NCBI GenBank assembly: GCA_903825465.1
Contig: CAIKAR010000110.1
Coordinates: 1-51,933, forward strand
DNA: 51,933 nt
Reading direction: 5' to 3'
Source of the DNA: an uncultured Hyphomicrobiales bacterium
GTDB taxonomy: Bacteria > Pseudomonadota > Alphaproteobacteria > Rhizobiales > Beijerinckiaceae
Below are positions 12,307-24,479 of this stretch, one piece after another. The notes under the pieces were generated by a model that did not search any database, was not told the origin of the DNA, and was given only the letters and a program-made list of their open reading frames with translations. The position numbers and the translations under genes are program-made. Within the stretch, counting starts at the first letter, position 1. Every line of letters begins with the position of its first letter.

Positions 12307-13422
12307 GTGACCCTCTACCGCGCTATTGGCCTGATGTCCGGCACGTCGATGGACGGCGTCGATGTCGCGCTTATCGAAAGCGACGGCGAAAACGCGGTCG
12401 CGCAGGGGCCGACCTCGTTCACGCCCTATGGCGACGACGAGCGCGCCCTTCTGCGCGCGGCGCTGGCGGAAGCCGCGGTTCTCGCGGACCGCGACGCGCG
12501 TCCGGGCGTTCTCGCGCAAGCCGAAAAGCTCGTCACCGACCGCCACGCCGAGGCCGTCGAAGCGTTTCTGCGCGAGTGCGACCTCGCGCCGGCGGAAATC
12601 GACTTGATCGGTTTTCACGGACAGACCGTGCTGCACCGGCCGGAGAAAAAGCTCACGGTCCAGATCGGCGACGGCGCGGCGCTGGCGCGGCGCCTTGGCA
12701 TTCCCGTGATCCACGATTTCCGCGCGTGGGACGTGGCCAACGGCGGGCAGGGCGCGCCGCTGGTTCCCGCCTATCACCGCGCGTTGGTGGAAGCGGCGGG
12801 TCTCGCGGGCGCGCCCGTGGCGCTGGTGAATATTGGCGGCGTCTCGAATGTCACCTTTGTCGCGCCGGGGCTTGATCCGGTGGCTTGCGATTGCGGGCCG
12901 GGCAACGCGTTGATCGACGACCTCATGCTGGCGCGCGCCGGCGCGCCGATGGACCGCGACGGATTGAGCGCGCGGGCGGGCGCGGCGAACGCCGCGGCCC
13001 TCGCCAAACTGCTCGACCATCCGTATTTCGCCGCGCCGCCGCCGAAATCGCTCGACCGCAACGCGTTTTCCCGCGCGCCGGTGGACGGCCTCTCGACGCT
13101 CGACGCCGCCGCGACGCTGGTGGAGTTCACAGCCGAGGCCATCGCGATGTCGCTGCGGCAAATGCCGGCGCGCGTTGAAAGACTTGTCGTCTGCGGCGGC
13201 GGCGCGCGCAACCCGACGATCCTCGCCGCGCTGGCGCGCCGCGCCAACGCGCGCGTGGAGACCGCCGACGAAGCCGGCTGGTCGGCGGACGCGATGGAGG
13301 CGCAGGCCTTCGCCTATCTCGCGATACGATCGTGGAAAGGCTTGCCGTTCAGCTATCCAACGACCACCGGCGCGCCGCGGCCCCTGTGCGGCGGCGTGCT
13401 GGAGATGCCTACAGGGCGATGA
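12307..13422 (+). CDS. anmK: Anhydro-N-acetylmuramic acid kinase
   Basis: Cytoplasmic recycling enzyme that opens and phosphorylates 1,6-anhydro-MurNAc to MurNAc-6-phosphate; 371 residues, normal for the family. The N-terminal phosphate-binding signature GLMSGTSMDGVDVAL is intact, as are DFRAWDVANGGQGAPLVP, the NIGGVSN segment, and the C-terminal CGGGARN motif. Start is GTG 12307, followed directly by the family's typical opening (TLYRAIGLMSGT). Its last 14 bases overlap the end of the convergent moeA. It fits the cell-wall theme of the first 23 kb. Confidence 0.95.
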   Translation: MTLYRAIGLMSGTSMDGVDVALIESDGENAVAQGPTSFTPYGDDERALLRAALAEAAVLADRDARPGVLAQAEKLVTDRHAEAVEAFLRECDLAPAEIDLIGFHGQTVLHRPEKKLTVQIGDGAALARRLGIPVIHDFRAWDVANGGQGAPLVPAYHRALVEAAGLAGAPVALVNIGGVSNVTFVAPGLDPVACDCGPGNALIDDLMLARAGAPMDRDGLSARAGAANAAALAKLLDHPYFAAPPPKSLDRNAFSRAPVDGLSTLDAAATLVEFTAEAIAMSLRQMPARVERLVVCGGGARNPTILAALARRANARVETADEAGWSADAMEAQAFAYLAIRSWKGLPFSYPTTTGAPRPLCGGVLEMPTGR

Positions 13423-14632
13423 AGCGGCAGGCCTCGCCCTTCGTGGCCGCCGGCGCGCGGACCGGGCGGATAACCAAGCATTCGGATTGCGCCAGCACGC
13501 GCAGCATCGACGAATCCTGCCGACTGAATGGCGTCGCCACCGGCAACCCATCGCGGCCTGGCGAAAGCGTCGCGCGCAGATAATCCTCGCGCCCGTCGTT
13601 GGGGCCGAGGTCGGCGCCGAGCGTGGCCACGCCGCTGTGGTCGGCGCCGGCGTCGGGGTCGCCGCAGAGGGCGCGGATCAGAGGCGCGAGAAACAGCACG
13701 CCGCAGACAATCGCCGACACCGGGTTGCCGGGCAGGCCGAGGATGCGCATGTCGCCGATGCGCCCGTGCATCAAGGGCTTTCCCGGACGCATGGCGATTT
13801 TCCAAAAGCCGAGTTCCATGCCCTCTTTCGCCAGAGCGCTTTGCACGAGGTCGTGGTCGCCGACGCTGGCGCCGCCAAGCGTGACGAGAATGTCGGCCTT
13901 CGCTTCCCGCGCGGCTTTGAGGCGGTCTTCGAGCGCCGAAAAACTGTCGGCCGCGATGCCCAGGTCGATGGTCTCGGCGCCGGCGGCCCGCGCGTAGGCC
14001 ATGACGGCGTAGGTGTTCGACGCGACGATCTGGTCGGGACCGGGGTTTTGTCCGGGGGCGACGAGTTCGTCGCCCGTCGCGAGCAGGGCGACGCGCGGCT
14101 TGCGCGCCACCGGCAGGGCGCCATGGTTCATGGCGGCGGCGAGCGCGAGCTCGCAGGGGCCGAGGCGGCGGCCTCTCGGCAGCAACACATCGCCGACGGA
14201 AAAATCGAGGCCCGCGCGGCGAATGTTGCGGCCGACAGGCTCCGATCGCAGGCATTTTACGACGCCGTCCGAGGCTTCGGTGTCTTCCTGAATGATCACG
14301 GTGTCCGCGCCCGCCGGCACAGGCGCGCCGGTGAAAATGCGCGCGGCTTCGCCGGGGCCGACCACGCCCGCGAAGCCGTGCCCGGCGGCGCTGACGCCAA
14401 TCACCCGCAACGTCGCCGGCGCGTCGGCGATGTCGGCGGCGCGCGCCGCGTAGCCATCCATGGCGGACGCCGCGAACGGTGGCTGGGTGCGCGTCGCGGC
14501 GAGATCCTCCGCCAACGTTCGGCCGGCGCATTCGGCGAGGGGGACGCGTTCAACGCCTAGTATGCCCGGCGCGCTTTGCAGCACGCGAACGAGGGCGTCG
14601 GCGACGGGGAGCAGGGGCGAGGGTGTGTTCAT
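13409..14632 (-). CDS. moeA: Molybdopterin molybdotransferase
   Basis: MoeA inserts molybdate into adenylylated molybdopterin to finish molybdenum cofactor; 407 residues. Visible hallmarks are PFAASAMDGYA near residue 55, GEAARIFTGAPVPAGAD around residue 90, and the MoCF-binding stretch LLATGDELV plus LVTLGGASVGDHD. C-terminal domain IV follows. It is a lone gene here; the other moa/moe genes are not in the window. ATG 14632 is taken as start because the family N-terminus begins right there. Convergent overlap with anmK leaves no room for a terminator. Confidence 0.95.
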   Translation of the reverse strand: MNTPSPLLPVADALVRVLQSAPGILGVERVPLAECAGRTLAEDLAATRTQPPFAASAMDGYAARAADIADAPATLRVIGVSAAGHGFAGVVGPGEAARIFTGAPVPAGADTVIIQEDTEASDGVVKCLRSEPVGRNIRRAGLDFSVGDVLLPRGRRLGPCELALAAAMNHGALPVARKPRVALLATGDELVAPGQNPGPDQIVASNTYAVMAYARAAGAETIDLGIAADSFSALEDRLKAAREAKADILVTLGGASVGDHDLVQSALAKEGMELGFWKIAMRPGKPLMHGRIGDMRILGLPGNPVSAIVCGVLFLAPLIRALCGDPDAGADHSGVATLGADLGPNDGREDYLRATLSPGRDGLPVATPFSRQDSSMLRVLAQSECLVIRPVRAPAATKGEACRFIAL

Positions 14633-14730
14633 GCCGCTTCATAGCGCAGGTTCGCCCGGGAGGGGAGGCGGCGCCCGCCCCTGTCTTTTTCGCGCGGCGC
14701 GACTACATAGGGGCCAAGCTCTCGCCGCGG

Positions 14731-16212
14731 GTGTTCGCCTTGGCTCTTTTCGACGATTTGGCCCTCGAAGCCCGCGTCGCCGCGCGCGGCCTCGCCGAAT
14801 ATATGCGGGGCGGCGCGCTGCGGCTCGGCGTGACGGGGCTGTCGCGCGCCGGCAAGACGGTTTTCATCACCTCCCTTGTCCACAATTTGACGCGCGGCGG
14901 CAGGCTGCCGGTGTTTCGCGTTCAGGCCGAAGGACGGCTGCTGAGCGCTAGCCTCGATCCGCAGCCCGACGACCATGTCGCGCGTTTCGCCTACGAGGAG
15001 CATCTCGCCGCGTTGACCGGCGGCGCGGAAGGCGCGGCGGCGCGCCATTGGCCGAGCTCCACCACCGAGGAGTCGGAGTTGCGGCTGACGCTTGAATTCG
15101 AGCGTCGGGATGGCTGGCGCGCCGGGCCGTCGAAACTTCACATCGACATTTTCGACTACCCGGGCGAATGGCTGCTCGATTTGCCGCTGCTGACGAAAAG
15201 CTACGCGCAATGGTCGCGCGAAACGATGGAGGCGAGCGCGGCCGCAGCGCGCGCGCCGCTGGCGGCTGATTGGCGCGGCTTTCTGACAACGCTCGATCCC
15301 GCCGCGCCGGCGCTGGAGGACAACGCGCGCAAGTCCGCGGCGCTGTTCACATCCTATCTGCGCGCCGCGCGCGACGAGCGCTACGCGCTTTCGACGCTGC
15401 CGCCGGGGCGGTTTCTGTTGCCGGGCGCCTACAAGGATTCGCCGCTGCTGGCGTTCTCGCCGCTGCCGATCCCCGAGGGCGCCGAGATTGTCGAGGGCTC
15501 GCTCGCGGCGATGATGGAGCGCCGCTACGAATCCTACAAAAGCCGCGTCGTGAAGCCGTTTTTCGTCGATCACTTTTCGCGGCTCGACCGGCAGATCGTG
15601 CTCGTTGACGTGTTGAGCGCGCTTAATTCGGGCCCGACCGCGGTGCGCGACCTCGAGACGGCGCTCGCGGGCGTGCTGCCGGCTTTCCGCGTGGGCTCGT
15701 CGTCGCTGCTGTCGCGGGTGTTCCGCCCGCGCATCGACAAGATATTGTTCGCCGCGACGAAGGCCGACCATCTCCATCACGCCAGCCACGACCGGCTTGA
15801 GGCGATCCTGCGGACGCTCGTCGCGCGCGCCATCGCGCGGACCGAAACGCTTGGCGGCGCCATCGATGTCGTCGCCCTCGCCGGCGCGCGGGCGACGCGG
15901 GAGGCCAGCGTCAAACAGGGCCGCGAGACGCTCGACGCCATTGTCGGCGCGCCGATGGCGGGCGAGCGCGTCAACGGCGAGGTTTTCGACGGCGACGCCG
16001 AGGTCGCGATCTTCCCCGGCGAGCTGCCGGCGGACCCGCGCGCGGTTTTTCGCGGCGACGGATTGGCGGCGGCGGACGCCGACGCGGACTACCGCTTTGT
16101 GAAATTCCGCCCGCCCGTGGCGAAGCTGGACGAATCCGGGCTCGCCGCGCCCCTGCCGCATATCCGAATGGACCGGGCGCTGCAGTTCCTTGTTGGCGAC
16201 AAGCTGAAATAA
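14731..16212 (+). CDS. ycjX: YcjX-like P-loop GTPase (DUF463)
   Basis: Stress-linked nucleotide-binding protein of the DUF463/YcjX family, about 493 residues. The Walker A loop is GLSRAGKTVFITSL at about residues 40-53; HIDIFDYPGEWLLDLPLL follows in the usual place, and ATKADHLHHASHDRL is likely the base-specificity motif (TKAD). I chose GTG 14731; TTG 14740 is equally possible, since no clear Shine-Dalgarno is visible, and the frame upstream merely overlaps moeA antisense. In many proteobacteria ycjX is followed by a DUF697 membrane protein gene (ycjF); here purE follows instead. Confidence 0.88.
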   Translation: MFALALFDDLALEARVAARGLAEYMRGGALRLGVTGLSRAGKTVFITSLVHNLTRGGRLPVFRVQAEGRLLSASLDPQPDDHVARFAYEEHLAALTGGAEGAAARHWPSSTTEESELRLTLEFERRDGWRAGPSKLHIDIFDYPGEWLLDLPLLTKSYAQWSRETMEASAAAARAPLAADWRGFLTTLDPAAPALEDNARKSAALFTSYLRAARDERYALSTLPPGRFLLPGAYKDSPLLAFSPLPIPEGAEIVEGSLAAMMERRYESYKSRVVKPFFVDHFSRLDRQIVLVDVLSALNSGPTAVRDLETALAGVLPAFRVGSSSLLSRVFRPRIDKILFAATKADHLHHASHDRLEAILRTLVARAIARTETLGGAIDVVALAGARATREASVKQGRETLDAIVGAPMAGERVNGEVFDGDAEVAIFPGELPADPRAVFRGDGLAAADADADYRFVKFRPPVAKLDESGLAAPLPHIRMDRALQFLVGDKLK

Positions 16213-16341
16213 GCGCCGCCGCCTTGCGCGCCGGGGGGCCATCGTCTATGCCCGCCGCTTCCTCCAGGGGTTTTTTCGCGCGTTTTCTTCACGTGAACCG
16301 GGTTCCACGTCGCTTGAAAACGCCATGAGCGGACGCCGCGC

Positions 16342-16842
16342 TTGAGCCAGAAACAGGTCCCCGTCGCCATTATCATGGGCAGCCAGTCCGACTGGCCGAC
16401 GATGCGCCGCGCCGCCGAAACGCTCGCCGCGCTCGGCGTAGGCTACGACGCGCGGATTGTCAGCGCGCACCGCACGCCCGACCGGCTGGCGTCGTTCGCC
16501 AAAGGCGCGCGGTCGGAGGGTTTCAAGGTCGTGATCGCGGGCGCCGGCGGCGCCGCTCATTTGCCGGGCATGACGGCGGCGATGACGCCCTTGCCGGTGC
16601 TGGGCGTGCCCGTGGAAAGCAAGGCTTTGTCGGGTCGGGATTCACTGCTTTCCATCGTTCAAATGCCGCCCGGCGTGCCCGTGGGCACCCTGGCCATTGG
16701 CCCTTCCGGAGCCGTCAACGCGGCGTTGCTGGCCGTGGCGATCCTCGCCTTGAACGATCCCGCGCTCGCGGGCCGCCTCGACGATTGGCGGGCGCGGCAA
16801 ACGGCGGATGTGGCCGAACGCCCCTCTGACGCGCAAACCTGA
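16342..16842 (+). CDS. purE: N5-carboxyaminoimidazole ribonucleotide mutase
   Basis: Class I PurE, moving the carboxyl of N5-CAIR to give CAIR in purine biosynthesis; 166 residues. The substrate loop [18 protein letters not shown] (catalytic His) and the [10 protein letters not shown] loop are intact. No ATG lies in frame upstream, so TTG 16342 is the likely start. It overlaps the TGA of a six-codon reading frame starting at ATG 16325, so translation may be coupled. The stop overlaps the purK start (TGATG), the normal operon partner. Confidence 0.95.
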
Positions 16843-17927
16843 TGGGCGCGGATTCGAACGCTTCGCTTTCGCCCGGCGACACCATTGGCGTGCTGGGTTC
16901 GGGCCAACTCGGCCGGATGCTCGCCGCCGCGGCGGCCAGTCTCGGCCTCAAGACGCATATTTACTGTCCGGAAGGCGGACCGGCGCTGGATGTCGCCGCG
17001 GCGAGCACGCGCGCCGCCTATGACGACGACGACGCCCTCGCCGCCTTCGCCAAATCGGTGAAGCGCGTCACCTACGAATTCGAGAACGTGCCGGCTCACA
17101 CCGCCGCCTACCTCGCGGCGCGGTTGCCGGTGCATCCGAACCCCGGCGCGCTGGCGACGGCTCAGGATCGCTTGACCGAGAAGACTTTCATCAACGGCCT
17201 CGGCGTCGCGACCGCGCCCTTCGCCAGGATCGACAACGCCGGCGACCTCGACGCCGCGTTGGCGAGGCTTGGGCGGCCCGCGATCCTGAAGACCCGCCGC
17301 ATGGGCTACGACGGCAAGGGCCAGGTCATGATCCGCGGCGGCGACGACGCTGGCGCGGCGCTCGCCGAGATGCGCGGCCAGCCGGCGATTCTCGAAGGCT
17401 TTGTGAATTTCCGACGCGAGGTTTCAGTGGTGGCGGCGCGCGGCGTCGACGGGGCGTTCGCCGCTTTCGACATCAACGAAAACGAACACGCGAACCACAT
17501 TCTCAGCGTCACCCGCGCGCCCGCCGACGTGTCCGCTGCGACGGCGGACGCGGCGGTCGCCACGGCGCGCAAAATCGCCGACGCGCTCGGCTATGTCGGC
17601 GTCATCGCGGTGGAAATGTTCGTCGTCGTGGACAACGGCGTCGAAAAGCTCGTCGTGAACGAAATCGCGCCGCGCGTGCACAATTCCGGGCACTGGACCA
17701 TCGACGGCGCCGAGACCTCGCAATTCGAGCAGCACATCCGCGCCATCGCGGGCTGGCCGCTGGGCTCGCCCAAAATCCTTGGCCGGGTGGAAATGCGGAA
17801 TCTGATTGGCGCGGATGTGCTGCGTTGGCGCGAGCTGTTGGCCGAGCCCGGAACCCGCGTCCATCTTTACGGCAAGCGCGAGGCGCGCGAGGGCCGCAAG
17901 ATGGGCCATGTCACGCGCGTGGAATAG
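16842..17927 (+). CDS. purK: N5-carboxyaminoimidazole ribonucleotide synthase
   Basis: ATP-grasp enzyme of 361 residues that joins AIR, bicarbonate and ATP to make N5-CAIR, the substrate of PurE. The N-terminal GVLGSGQLGRMLAAAA is the typical PurK opening, TRRMGYDGKGQ is the ATP-binding loop, and NEIAPRVHNSGHWTIDG carries the metal-binding residues. The start ATG 16842 shares one base with the purE stop, indicating translational coupling. Confidence 0.96.
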   Translation: MGADSNASLSPGDTIGVLGSGQLGRMLAAAAASLGLKTHIYCPEGGPALDVAAASTRAAYDDDDALAAFAKSVKRVTYEFENVPAHTAAYLAARLPVHPNPGALATAQDRLTEKTFINGLGVATAPFARIDNAGDLDAALARLGRPAILKTRRMGYDGKGQVMIRGGDDAGAALAEMRGQPAILEGFVNFRREVSVVAARGVDGAFAAFDINENEHANHILSVTRAPADVSAATADAAVATARKIADALGYVGVIAVEMFVVVDNGVEKLVVNEIAPRVHNSGHWTIDGAETSQFEQHIRAIAGWPLGSPKILGRVEMRNLIGADVLRWRELLAEPGTRVHLYGKREAREGRKMGHVTRVE

Positions 17928-19537: not shown

Positions 19538-20053
19538 ATGGCCGGCATGACAAAGTTTACTTTTCGCGCTGTTCTCTTTCTCGCCGCCGCGGCGTTGCCG
19601 CTCATGGCCGCTCCCCTCGGCTCGCCGGCGGCGTTCGGCGCGCGCGCGCAAAGCCCGGCGCCCGCCGCCGAGACGAACCTCGAAACCCTGACCTTTCAGA
19701 CGGCGGGCGGCCCCGCGGCGTTCAAGGTCGAGGTGATGCGTAACGACGCCGAGCGCGAGCGTGGGCTGATGTATCGCCGCTTCATGCCCGCCGACCGCGG
19801 CATGCTGTTCGATTTCGGCCGCGAGCAGAACGTGATGATGTGGATGAAGAACACCTACATCCCGCTCGACATGGTGTTCATTTCCCGCGCCGGCGTGGTT
19901 GTCCATATCGCCGAAAACGCGGAGCCGCTGTCCGAGCGCATCATCCCTTCGGACGCGCCCACCTACGCCGTTGTCGAACTCAACGGCGGCGCGGCTAAAA
20001 AGATTGGACTCAAGATCGGCGACCAGGTCGATCATCCGATGTTTCGAAAATAG
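19538..20053 (+). CDS. Secreted DUF192 family protein
   Basis: About 171 residues: an N-terminal signal peptide (RAVLFLAAAALPLMA) and a DUF192 domain. The family's signature is clear: ERERGLMYRR, GMLFDFG, MMWMKNTYIPLDMVFI and a C-terminal VVELNGG. The fold is known but the function is not established. ATG 19538 and ATG 19547 are both possible starts, and neither has a convincing Shine-Dalgarno. The murL gene follows 9 bases after the stop, so it may belong to the same transcript, though nothing known links it to peptidoglycan. Confidence 0.85.
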   Translation: MAGMTKFTFRAVLFLAAAALPLMAAPLGSPAAFGARAQSPAPAAETNLETLTFQTAGGPAAFKVEVMRNDAERERGLMYRRFMPADRGMLFDFGREQNVMMWMKNTYIPLDMVFISRAGVVVHIAENAEPLSERIIPSDAPTYAVVELNGGAAKKIGLKIGDQVDHPMFRK

Positions 20054-20062
20054 CGCGAGCCG

Positions 20063-21424
20063 ATGCGGGCGTCGTTCGGCGATTTCAATATTCTCGGTTT
20101 CGACACCGACAATTCCGCCGGCGTCGTTCGGTTGCGGTACGCCTACGAAAAAGGCGGCTCGTTTTGCGAAACGCTGTCGTTTGGCGCGCCGCTGCCCGGC
20201 GACGACAGTCCTTTCCGCCCCGCCTTCGAGGAGGCTCTCGCGGCGCTGCTGGTTCTCTCCGGCGTCAGCTACTACAAGGCCTTCGCGCCCGACAACGTCG
20301 TCGTTCACCACGCCCGGACGACCCCGGACAGATTGCCGTTCTTCAAGAAGCTGTATGTCGAGGGCCTCGGCGAATTCGCTTACAGGAACAACATCGACGT
20401 CGCCGGCCGCCTGAATATTTTTTCGCGCGCGCCGCTGGCCGCCGCCGCGACATCGACGGGCGTCCGCCCGCATCCCGCGTTGCCGCGAAGGTCGGCGGTT
20501 CTGATCGGCGGCGGCAAGGATTCGCTCGTCAGCGTCGAGGCGCTGCGCGCGGCGTCCGAACCGATGACCCTGTTCGCGGTGAATCCCAAGCGGCCAATGA
20601 CGGAATGCGCGGAAGCGAGCGGGTTGCCGCTGATTGCCGTGTCGCGCCAGCTCGATGCCGGACTGTTCGAACTCAACAAGGCCGGCGCGTTGAACGGCCA
20701 TGTGCCGATCACGGCGATCGTGAGCTTCATCGCCATCGCGGCGAGCTTCGTTCATGGCTTCGACGCGGTCGTGCTTTCCAACGAGCGCTCGGCCGACGAG
20801 GGCACCGTCGAGCGCGACGGCGTTTCGATCAACCATCAGTTCAGCAAGAGCAGCGGCGCGGAAGCGGACATCACCGACTACGTCAAGACTCGCATATCCG
20901 CGGACCTCGTCTATTTCTCGCTGTTGCGGCCCTTGTCGGAGGCGCATATCGCGCGGCTCTTCGCGCGGGTCGACCGTTACGACCACGTCTTCACTAGCTG
21001 CAACCGCGCGTTTCAAATTTTGGCTAAAACCGAGCCGGCGCGCTGGTGTCTGGATTGCCCCAAGTGCCGCTTCACTTTTTTGATGCTCGCGACGGCGATG
21101 CCGGCGGCGCGGCTCCGTTCGATTTTCGGCGCGGATCTTCTGGACGACGCGCGCCAGTTGCGCGGATACGAGGAGTTAAGCGGGCTCGCCGGCCATAAGC
21201 CATGGGAGTGTGTGGGCGAAATCGCCGAGTCGAGCGCGGCGCTGTTGATGCTGGCGCGCGATCCCGCCTGGGCGGACAGCGCCGTGGTCAAAAGCCTCGC
21301 GCCGCGGTTGGCGCCGCACGCGGCGGAATTGGACCGCGTGTGGACGCGGTTGATGACGCCCTCCGCGGATCATTTTTTGAGCCCTCGCTTCGAGAGCGCG
21401 CTGCATGACTACATCGGCCGATAG
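20063..21424 (+). CDS. murL: UDP-MurNAc-L-Ala-L-Glu epimerase
   Basis: MurL inverts the terminal L-Glu of UDP-MurNAc-L-Ala-L-Glu to D-Glu, replacing the glutamate racemase plus MurD route. The family was described in Xanthomonas together with MurD2. At 453 residues the length fits. I recognise a PP-loop-like ATP site GGGKDSLVS (149-157), SNERSA (239-244), NHQFSKS (257-263), SLLRPLSE, FTSCNRAF and a cysteine cluster WCLDCPKCRF (328-336). The decisive support is context: the next gene, overlapping by 20 bases, is the matching MurD2-type ligase. Start ATG 20063 lies 9 bases after DUF192. Confidence 0.87.
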   Translation: MRASFGDFNILGFDTDNSAGVVRLRYAYEKGGSFCETLSFGAPLPGDDSPFRPAFEEALAALLVLSGVSYYKAFAPDNVVVHHARTTPDRLPFFKKLYVEGLGEFAYRNNIDVAGRLNIFSRAPLAAAATSTGVRPHPALPRRSAVLIGGGKDSLVSVEALRAASEPMTLFAVNPKRPMTECAEASGLPLIAVSRQLDAGLFELNKAGALNGHVPITAIVSFIAIAASFVHGFDAVVLSNERSADEGTVERDGVSINHQFSKSSGAEADITDYVKTRISADLVYFSLLRPLSEAHIARLFARVDRYDHVFTSCNRAFQILAKTEPARWCLDCPKCRFTFLMLATAMPAARLRSIFGADLLDDARQLRGYEELSGLAGHKPWECVGEIAESSAALLMLARDPAWADSAVVKSLAPRLAPHAAELDRVWTRLMTPSADHFLSPRFESALHDYIGR

Positions 21425-22763
21425 CAAAGCCCCCGCCATCTGGGGTTTCGGCCGCGAGGGCAGGGCCGCGTTCGCGTTTTTCGCGAAGACGCGGCCGGGC
21501 CTGAAGGTGGCGGTGCTCAACGACACGCCATTGCCGCCCGATGTCGCGGCGGAATTGCGCGGGGTCGAGGTGTTGACGGGACCGGAGGCGGCGGCCGCGC
21601 TCGCCGCGGGCCGGTTCGACTTCGTGGTGAAAAGCCCCGGTATTCCGCTGAACCGGCCCGAGATCGCCGCGGCAAAGGCGAACGGCGCGCGCTTCACGTC
21701 GGCGACGAACCTCTGGTTCGAGCAAAAGGGCGCGACGCCGGTGATCGCCGTCACCGGCACCAAGGGCAAGAGCACGACATCGACGCTGGCCTTTCACCTA
21801 TTGCGCGACGCCGGCCTCGACGTCGGGCTTTTCGGCAACGTCGGCGTCGCTCCGCTCGGCCAGCCCGCGCCGCGCGACTACGCCGTCGTCGAGCTTTCGT
21901 CCTATCAAACCGCCGACCTCGAACACGCGCCCGACATCGTGGTCTTCACCAACCTGTCGCCGGAACACATGACCTGGCACGGTTCGGTCGCGCGCTATTA
22001 CGAAGACAAGCTGCGCGTGGCTTCGCTCCCGCCGCGCGCGGTTGTGATTTGCAACGGCGGCGACATCAGGCTGCGCGAACAATTCCACGATCGGCCGAAT
22101 GTCGTTTGGTACAACGGGGACAGCGGTTTTCGCGTCCGCGATGGCGCCTTGTGGCGCGACGGCGCGCGCGTCGACACCTCGCTGTTTCCGTTGAAGGGGT
22201 CGCACAATCTCGAAAACCTGGCGGCGGCGCTGACCCTGCTCGACCATATTGGCGCGCGCCCGCCCGCCCCCGGATTGCCGCTGGAGGGATTTCACAAGCT
22301 GCCGCACCGCTTGTCGGAATTTTTCGTCGAGCCGGATGTTCTTTGCGTCGATGACAGCATTTCGACGACGCCGGTCGCGACCATCGCGGCGTTGAAAACC
22401 TTCGCGGAGCGCCCCGCCGTTCTGCTGCTCGGGGGCACCGAGCGCGGGCAGGACTACGCGGACTTGTACAAGCTTCTCGCGGCGGCGAAGCGGATCAAGG
22501 CTGTGATCGCGCTGCCGCCCAACGGCGCGCGGATTTTCAGCGAAATGTCGGGCCTTGCGATGCCTTTTCCCATGCTCAAGGCGGCCAACCTGCGCGAGGC
22601 GGTGGACGCGGCCTTCACATGGCTGGAAGCGGGCGACATGCTGCTGCTGTCGCCAGCGGCGCCGAGTTTCGGCGAGTTCGCGAATTTCGAGGAGCGGGGC
22701 GAGGCGTTTGTGGCGCTGTGTCGGAAGCGGGAGGCCGAGCGCGGCGGCGCTCCCTTTGGCTGA
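21405..22763 (+). CDS. murD2: UDP-MurNAc-L-Ala--L-glutamate ligase (MurD2)
   Basis: Mur ligase family enzyme of 452 residues. The N-terminal Rossmann-like domain (IWGFGREGRAAFAF) binds the UDP sugar, the P-loop is VTGTKGKSTT (about 116-125), and ELSSYQ plus FTNLSPEHMTWHG are shared with MurD. Canonical MurD adds D-Glu; MurD2 adds L-Glu, which MurL then epimerises. The L-Glu assignment rests on the overlapping murL gene and on divergence from ordinary MurD, whose gene normally sits in the dcw cluster. Start ATG 21405 lies inside murL, implying translational coupling. Confidence 0.85.
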   Translation: MTTSADSKAPAIWGFGREGRAAFAFFAKTRPGLKVAVLNDTPLPPDVAAELRGVEVLTGPEAAAALAAGRFDFVVKSPGIPLNRPEIAAAKANGARFTSATNLWFEQKGATPVIAVTGTKGKSTTSTLAFHLLRDAGLDVGLFGNVGVAPLGQPAPRDYAVVELSSYQTADLEHAPDIVVFTNLSPEHMTWHGSVARYYEDKLRVASLPPRAVVICNGGDIRLREQFHDRPNVVWYNGDSGFRVRDGALWRDGARVDTSLFPLKGSHNLENLAAALTLLDHIGARPPAPGLPLEGFHKLPHRLSEFFVEPDVLCVDDSISTTPVATIAALKTFAERPAVLLLGGTERGQDYADLYKLLAAAKRIKAVIALPPNGARIFSEMSGLAMPFPMLKAANLREAVDAAFTWLEAGDMLLLSPAAPSFGEFANFEERGEAFVALCRKREAERGGAPFG

Positions 22764-23774: not shown

Positions 23775-24479
23775 ATGGATGGCGAGATCGCTAAATCCGG
23801 CGAGATGGAAGAGGCGGTTCTGTTTGGGCTTCGCTCGGGGCCTCTCAGCCGCCGGTCGTTTTTGGTGGGCTCGACTGTCGGTCTTGGCGCGCTGGGGTTG
23901 GCCGGTTGCGCGGCAACCGATGGCATGAGCCTCGCTGAAGCGACGGCGCTCTATGGGCCGGTGCCCGACAAGAAATTCCCGATTCCGGCGGTCGACGTCG
24001 CCAAGATCGATCCGAAATTTTACCGCAAAACCTTGCGCTACGACACCAAGGAAGCCCCCGGCACGATTATCGTGGATCCCGCCAACTACTACGTTTACCG
24101 CGTTGAAGGCGATGGCAACGCCACACGCTACGGCGCCAATGTCGGTCGCGAAGGGTTCTTGTGGAGCGGCGAAGCCTATGTCGGGCGCAAAGCGGAATGG
24201 CCGACGTGGACGCCGCCCAAAGAGATGATCCAGCGTCAGCCGGAGGCGCGAAAATACGCCGGCGGCATGCCCGGAGGGCTGGACAATCCACTCGGTGCCC
24301 GCACGCTCTATCTCTATCAGAACGGCGCGTACACGCTCTACACGATCTACAGCACCAGCGACCCCGAATCGATCGGAACCGGCGCCACCAGCGGCTGCAC
24401 CGGCCTGCTCAGTCAGGATATGATCGACCTCTATTCACGAACGCCGGTGAAGACGAAGGTGGTCGTCCTGCCGGCATAG
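23775..24479 (+). CDS. YkuD-fold lipoprotein, L,D-transpeptidase-like with altered active site
   Basis: 234 residues. The N-terminus has a twin-arginine motif (SRRSFLVGS, Arg 26-27) and a lipobox LAGC (Cys 45), so it is probably exported by Tat and lipidated. The YkuD domain follows. Its nucleophile Cys is kept (SGC, Cys 208), but the usual HGT motif reads YST (192-194) and the Arg of GCIR is Gly (GCTG). Each change needs only single-base substitutions, and the reading frame is intact. It may be inactive, or a subfamily with a different mechanism or a binding role. ATG 23775 is the first plausible start; ATG 23805 would be shorter. Confidence 0.82.
   Translation: MDGEIAKSGEMEEAVLFGLRSGPLSRRSFLVGSTVGLGALGLAGCAATDGMSLAEATALYGPVPDKKFPIPAVDVAKIDPKFYRKTLRYDTKEAPGTIIVDPANYYVYRVEGDGNATRYGANVGREGFLWSGEAYVGRKAEWPTWTPPKEMIQRQPEARKYAGGMPGGLDNPLGARTLYLYQNGAYTLYTIYSTSDPESIGTGATSGCTGLLSQDMIDLYSRTPVKTKVVVLPA

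Follow-up and report, generated by a model that had tools for sequence, protein, structure and literature searches.

A MurL–MurD2 Gene Pair as the Probable Replacement of Glutamate Racemase and MurD in an Uncultured Member of the Hyphomicrobiales

How an alphaproteobacterium makes the D-glutamate (D-Glu) of its cell wall is the question raised by two overlapping genes in a 51,933-nucleotide stretch of DNA (the window; forward strand of contig CAIKAR010000110.1, assembly GCA_903825465.1) from an uncultured Hyphomicrobiales bacterium of the family Beijerinckiaceae. The first gene encodes a protein related to the epimerase MurL and the second a Mur ligase resembling MurD2, and the pair very probably constitutes a MurD2–MurL bypass of glutamate racemase (MurI) that replaces both murI and the murD of the dcw cluster. 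By analogy with the Xanthomonas enzymes, on which the assignment of the reactions and of a preference for L-glutamate (L-Glu) rests, the pair would invert the stereochemistry of a glutamate carried on a cell-wall precursor, and the product of the pathway would join the normal route at MurE. The MurL–MurD2 pathway is already published, Alphaproteobacteria included (available portions of PMC8788868). It is likely, in addition, that MurL is a QueC-family PP-loop enzyme, a carboxylate-adenylating fold turned one-way epimerase, and that it and MurD2 make up a two-gene cassette, complete in itself, which has repeatedly taken the place of both murI and murD in one genus of Alphaproteobacteria, close relatives thus building the same D-Glu by two routes.

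The Gene Pair

The murL open reading frame (ORF) occupies positions 20063..21424 (+ strand), starts with ATG, and encodes 453 amino acids (aa); the murD2 ORF, at 21405..22763 (+), also starts with ATG and encodes 452 aa. The two share 20 bases (21405..21424, +), as described in the first-pass annotation of this DNA, an arrangement that suggests a single transcript and translational coupling. The MurL landmarks listed in that annotation, GGGKDSLVS, NHQFSKS, and WCLDCPKC, are present in the translation of the first ORF, and the NCBIfam MurL model NF041275 covers residues 6–448 of this protein, nearly its full length, at 434.8 bits (E = 2.8e-130). It is the only gene of its genome that matches the MurL profile. 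A Pfam scan of MurL (E up to 0.1) returned no family, and a sequence search of the PDB with the single protein returned no solved relative up to E 1. The second gene, which had been read as a Mur ligase, is confirmed as such by the match of residues 12–440 of its product to the murD model TIGR01087 (E = 5.8e-86, 289 bits; cut-off 212) and by the Pfam domains Mur_ligase_M, Mur_ligase_C, and MurD-like_N; its closest solved relatives by sequence are MurDs. A PADLOC run found nothing.

Residues of the Ligase

Residues D182, K348, A414, and L416 of Escherichia coli MurD correspond to E197, R358, P433, and F435 of Xanthomonas MurD2; the E197D/R358K double mutation turns Xanthomonas MurD2 into a D-Glu ligase, and E. 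coli MurD accepts L-Glu after the K319T mutation (available portions of PMC8788868). These positions were compared in an alignment of 31 canonical MurDs (E. coli and 30 from related genomes) with 36 ligases from MurL loci, that of the window included. At E. coli positions 182/319/348/414 the window ligase has E/I/R/P, which places I, R, and P where canonical MurDs have K319, K348, and A414, and E and R where Xanthomonas MurD2 has E197 and R358. All 31 canonical MurDs have K at position 319, K at 348, A at 414, and D at 182. The MurL-locus ligases have I (35) or L (1) at position 319, R at 348 in 35 of 36, P at 414 in 33 of 35 (one further row is gapped), and E (26), D (9), or A (1) at 182. Position 416 is uninformative, as the canonical MurDs of the sample show Y, F, W, or L there, and R348 is not decisive by itself, since R aligns at this position in the solved MurD 3lk7 too. 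The best separator of MurD2 from MurD in this sample is the isoleucine at position 319; the available portions of PMC8788868 contain no statement of I319 as typical of MurD2. The window ligase carries the residues that mark L-Glu-using MurD2 enzymes, and its specificity would be for L-Glu.

The murD family model labels the window ligase a D-Glu ligase, and the substitution of I for K319, clean in the 67 aligned ligases, may identify MurD2 from sequence more reliably than that model. The same label is one of two points in favor of an alternative in which the ligase is an ordinary D-Glu-adding MurD that has merely come to lie beside an unrelated PP-loop gene, with D-Glu supplied by an unrecognized racemase of the Asp/Glu/hydantoin racemase family, PF01177. 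The other point is that the genome contains nine PF01177 matches, seven of them over the cut-off. Against this alternative stand I319, R348, and P414, shared with nearly all MurL-locus ligases, the mutual exclusion of MurL and MurI (at least 80 bits) over 61 genomes, and natural fusions of MurL and MurD2, both described below, together with the results of the genome search.

Other Sources of D-Glutamate in the Same Genome

The genome from which the window derives is assembled in 142 contigs and is 98.6% complete. A search for MurI with TIGR00067 at E 0.001 gave no match in it; 10 of 14 control genomes were positive. When eight of the nine PF01177 loci were compared with a partial MurI of the genus, the best score was 23 bits, and, with the lack of a TIGR00067 match, this rules out these paralogues as MurI. 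The PF01177 matches sit on contigs C88, C12, C5, C112, C93, C63, and C117. An ordinary MurD beside an unrelated gene is rejected on the combination of residues 319, 348, and 414 with the missing murI, and we regard that alternative as very improbable. A D-amino-acid transaminase as the source of D-Glu is also ruled out, the single class IV aminotransferase of the genome being of the branched-chain IlvE type (NF009897, 494 bits).

The window gene is the only MurD over the cut-off in the genome; weaker matches correspond to murC and to murE–murF of the dcw contig (C109) and to one unnamed place on contig C5. The dcw genes run murE–murF, mraY, ftsW, murG, with no murD between mraY and ftsW; 49 bases separate the mraY ORF, counted with its stop codon, from that of ftsW. 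In two relatives from the genus, G029 and G009, the order is mraY–murD–ftsW, and in a third, G011, mraY–murD is followed by the contig end, the same arrangement as in E. coli. On C109, a single stop-free frame of 1364 codons (positions 13358–17452 of locus L015) spans murE and murF, with a few residues between the two matches, and this genome likely encodes a MurE–MurF fusion; in three genus members compared, murE and murF are two separate frames.

The first-pass annotation had proposed a search of the full genome for murI, a D-amino-acid transaminase, and a canonical dcw murD, and none of the three was found. Its proposal that D-Glu is made on the uridine diphosphate (UDP)-linked intermediate is borne out as far as sequence can tell. 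It had left open whether this occurs instead of or alongside MurI–MurD. With no MurI, no transaminase, no dcw murD, and a ligase of the E/I/R/P type, “instead of” fits better, and MurL–MurD2 most likely replaces MurI–MurD in this organism. The pair is probably essential, since it would stand in for murI and the dcw murD, neither of which was found.

Distribution among Relatives

The comparison covered 61 genomes: that of the window, 36 others of its genus, and 24 from other families of the order. MurI was scored as present at 80 bits or more to TIGR00067, the curated cut-off of which is 147. MurL is present in 17 genomes, MurI in 37 (33 of them over the curated cut-off), both in none, and neither in seven. 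Within the genus (37 genomes) the counts are 16 with MurL, 18 with MurI, three with neither, and none with both. Two of the “neither” genomes, G006 (which has a 27-bit TIGR00067 match) and G020, contain a canonical MurD, and the third, G025, is without all three genes. The 23 genus genomes with completeness of 90% or more and contamination of 5% or less divide into nine with MurL only, 12 with MurI only, and two with neither, an exclusion with a Fisher p of 6.7e-5, the genomes not being independent. Genome G015, which has MurI and MurD and 6% contamination, has a fragmentary MurL match of 26 bits where one of its contigs ends and was not counted as having MurL. Each MurL genome has one MurD-type match above 150 bits, adjoining murL; in the three largest MurL genomes (G022, G024, and G031) 23 of the 30–31 first-look candidates were scored. 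A wider draw from the class contained MurL in 12 of 387 genomes, that of the window included. The nearest named relative is the Alphaproteobacteria metagenome-assembled genome (MAG) UBA1303, and genome G041 appears to be Devosiaceae-like, hence of the order Hyphomicrobiales, as its MurL groups with those of Pelagibacterium and Maritalea.

These counts also bear on a second alternative, in which both routes coexist, murI lies in an assembly gap, and the pair is an auxiliary route. The fragmented state of the assembly is compatible with such a gap; murD is gone too, at a contiguous dcw locus, MurI of at least 80 bits occurs in none of the 16 MurL genomes of the genus (G022 has a 21-bit match), and nine of these 16 lie within the same completeness and contamination limits (90% or more and 5% or less). 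Coexistence is considered highly improbable. D-Glu is required for the wall, and two routes to it within one genus, never found together, open the replacement of an essential pathway to direct experiment.

Repeated Switching of the Two Routes

An eight-gene matrix of 32 rows, comprising 28 of the 37 genus genomes (11 of the 16 with MurL) and four from outside, was analyzed under LG+G4; the rows dropped were G035, G025, genomes with fewer than 500 residues, and the outside genomes beyond these four. The matrix has much missing data and a simpler model, and mraY, ftsW, and murG are in no MurL row except that of the window. In the resulting tree, the window genome groups with the MurI genomes G009 and G011 (98/88). 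Five changes of route are needed on the best tree, two of them enforced by starred branches, and uniting the 11 MurL rows in a single clade is rejected (approximately unbiased test, p-AU = 4e-9). A tree of rpoB alone, which keeps four outside genomes and from which G035, G025, G020, and G023 were dropped, recovers the grouping with G009/G011 at 82/87 and implies four changes, one forced by starred branches; a single MurL clade has a p-AU of 0.042. A single origin of MurL within the genus is rejected, and the rejection by the multigene tree indicates that the D-Glu route was probably switched repeatedly.

Quick trees of MurL and MurD2 place the genus proteins in clades of seven and eight, with the window proteins apart from both. 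In the MurL tree, UBA1303 falls between the window and the two genus clades (Shimodaira–Hasegawa-like approximate likelihood ratio test, SH-aLRT, 89 and 90, unstarred), and in the MurD2 tree UBA1303 and both genus clades exclude the window (98, starred).

Predicted Fold and Motifs of MurL

The predicted model of MurL is confident (predicted local distance difference test, pLDDT, 93.5) and adopts a QueC/QatC-like PP-loop fold. The PP-loop-type motif GGGKDS (residues 149–154; 20507..20524, +) lies between a strand (144–147) and a helix (152–163); in an alignment of 23 MurL sequences GGGKD is invariant (23/23) and the following S is present in 21. Four cysteines, C313, C329, C332, and C335 (C-x15-C-x2-C-x2-C; 20999..21067, +), are each invariant in 23/23 and may bind a metal; the zinc motif of QueC is C-x8-C-x2-C-x2-C (available portions of PMC13329287). 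The QueC profile of Pfam, PF06508, matches one of the 23 MurL proteins (E = 3.1e-4), which is not that of the window, and a 23-row MurL profile run against the PDB retrieves few matches beyond the PP-loop of TtuA (E = 0.0048). A literature search for MurL together with PP-loop found no paper linking both, and one on adenylation and zinc in QueC-type PP-loop enzymes returned none.

A QueC/QatC PP-loop fold is what a carboxylate-adenylating enzyme would be expected to have. The authors who described the Xanthomonas enzyme hypothesized that MurL epimerizes via an adenylate intermediate, and the predicted fold, with its invariant cysteines, would fit such acyl-adenylate chemistry and adds support to it. 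The QueC-like PP-loop model also points to MurL residues for mutation.

Points against the Assignment

A number of observations weigh against the assignments made above. The score of the window MurL is below the curated NF041275 cut-off of 700 bits, the model being one for Xanthomonadales; as none of the 61 related genomes and none of the 387 class genomes reaches 700 bits, the cut-off is read as the limit of a clade and not of the MurL family. The low score is also what favors the idea that MurL acts on another peptide and not on a peptidoglycan precursor; that idea is opposed by the overlap with the murD2 gene, by the failure to find MurI and dcw MurD, and by the motifs invariant across the 23 MurL proteins, and we consider it exceedingly improbable. 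The ligase, as noted, passes TIGR01087, an equivalog model for D-Glu ligases, and a bacterial MurD2 model is absent among the 24 NCBIfam matches. The assembly, in 142 contigs at 98.6% completeness, leaves room for a lost murI. At E 0.001, TIGR00067 matches 43 of the 61 genomes; the six extra matches are weak (21–41 bits), and two of them belong to the MurL genomes G022 (21 bits) and G041 (29 bits), so that a clean exclusion requires the 80-bit line. The Foldseek TM-score of the MurL model to QatC is 0.44–0.46, and the PP-loop motif has GGG in place of SGG, with Gly for the first Ser in 23/23.

The published key residue E197 is, moreover, not universal, being replaced by D in nine and A in one of the 36 MurL-locus ligases. 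Seven of the nine D182 ligases are from the genus of the window (L140, L142, L146, L147, L148, L149, and L152), and the genomes that carry them have no MurI match of at least 80 bits (G022 has the one of 21 bits), which suggests that E197 is dispensable in some MurD2 enzymes; it seems, from these sequences, not to be needed in all.

Genomic Setting

A DUF192 gene (PF02643; 19478..20053, +) lies just upstream of murL and marks the insertion site. Neighboring genes were labeled from Pfam. In all 20 loci chosen from other genus genomes, DUF192 is preceded by the cold-shock gene csp2, and in 15 of them by sir2 as well; murL follows DUF192 in none of the 20, some of these csp2–DUF192 contigs ending within a few kilobases (kb); that placement is found in the window only. 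A contaminant contig is ruled out, the upstream block being common to the genus. Foreign base composition was likewise rejected: the GC fractions of murL (0.645) and murD2 (0.668) are near that of the window (0.654) and so provide no compositional hint of transfer. The site of the cassette (window 20053–20063) may be a rearrangement breakpoint. A tRNA-Pro(TGG) gene is near DUF192 in all five loci of MurI relatives scanned (L163, L165, L166, L172, and L175), within ~75 bases in four and at 1.8 kb in L175; a tRNA scan of the window found none. Downstream of the pair, an ORF at 23775–24479 (+) encodes the wall-related L,D-transpeptidase catalytic domain YkuD (PF03734, E = 1.7e-18).

The murI gene itself often lies beside a SpoU-type methylase gene (class by Pfam), which we take to be trmJ. 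Outside the genus, 11 murI loci place it between rpsD and trmJ (six), next to trmJ alone (four), or next to neither (one). Of eight wider MurI stretches from the genus, four (G029, G033, G005, and G017) show both flanks, two (G011 and G018) have only trmJ, and two (G013 and G009) show neither. Among the 15 genus MurL loci besides the window, rpsD and trmJ are both present in four, trmJ only in four, rpsD only in two, and neither in five within the stretch fetched. Ten of these 15 copies thus keep at least one neighbor of the old murI site, which indicates that at several loci the cassette is at or near that site; the window copy is elsewhere, and the 19-kb rpsD region of its genome contains neither murI nor trmJ. 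MurL may have been gained, or MurI regained.

Fusions and Exceptions in Other Bacteria

A search returned 25 MurL loci, and the frames were read in 22 (all except L021, L039, and L040). In three of these, a single open frame encodes both MurL and MurD2: a 916-aa protein in a Chromatiales MAG (L030, 4947–7694) and proteins of 907 aa (L037, 4926–7646) and 841 aa (L038, 1188–3710) in Bacteroidales MAGs. Such natural fusions support two consecutive steps on one intermediate. In four loci from sulfur bacteria of the Thiotrichales type (L024, L026, L027, and L028), murL has no murD2 match (tblastn, E 1e-8) within ~5 kb on either side. In MAGs labeled Parcubacteria (L035), Planctomycetota (L020), and Lachnospiraceae (L039), the labels being those given, murL adjoins murD2. 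The carriers of MurL–MurD2 named in the available portions of PMC8788868 are Gammaproteobacteria, Alphaproteobacteria, and actinobacteria.

Comparison with Known Systems

The MurD2–MurL pathway was described in the rice pathogen Xanthomonas oryzae (XOO_1320 and XOO_1319), verified by in vitro work for Micromonospora and Salinispora, and recognized in the genomes of Devosia, Pelagibacterium, and Parvularcula (available portions of PMC8788868). Similar to the Xanthomonas system, the window has an adjacent epimerase and putative L-Glu ligase with the diagnostic ligase residues, and MurI and D-amino-acid transaminase were not found in its genome. The main differences are that the window MurL scores 434.8 bits where the Xanthomonadales cut-off is 700, that the pair follows a DUF192 gene, and that other species of the genus keep MurI. 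Compared with the canonical MurI–MurD route (E. coli murD, locus L192), the ligase family is the same and the final product is expected to be the same, whereas the window ligase has I, R, and P in place of K319, K348, and A414, no MurI was found in the genome, and murD is missing between mraY and ftsW. In structural alignments with QueC-family members, namely QatC (9y01), QueC (2pg3 and 3bl5), and Cap9 (9nto), the window MurL shows 12–16% identity. It differs from that family in the GGG that replaces SGG, in its presumed substrate, UDP-muramyl dipeptide, and in the predicted outcome of the reaction, which would be epimerization.
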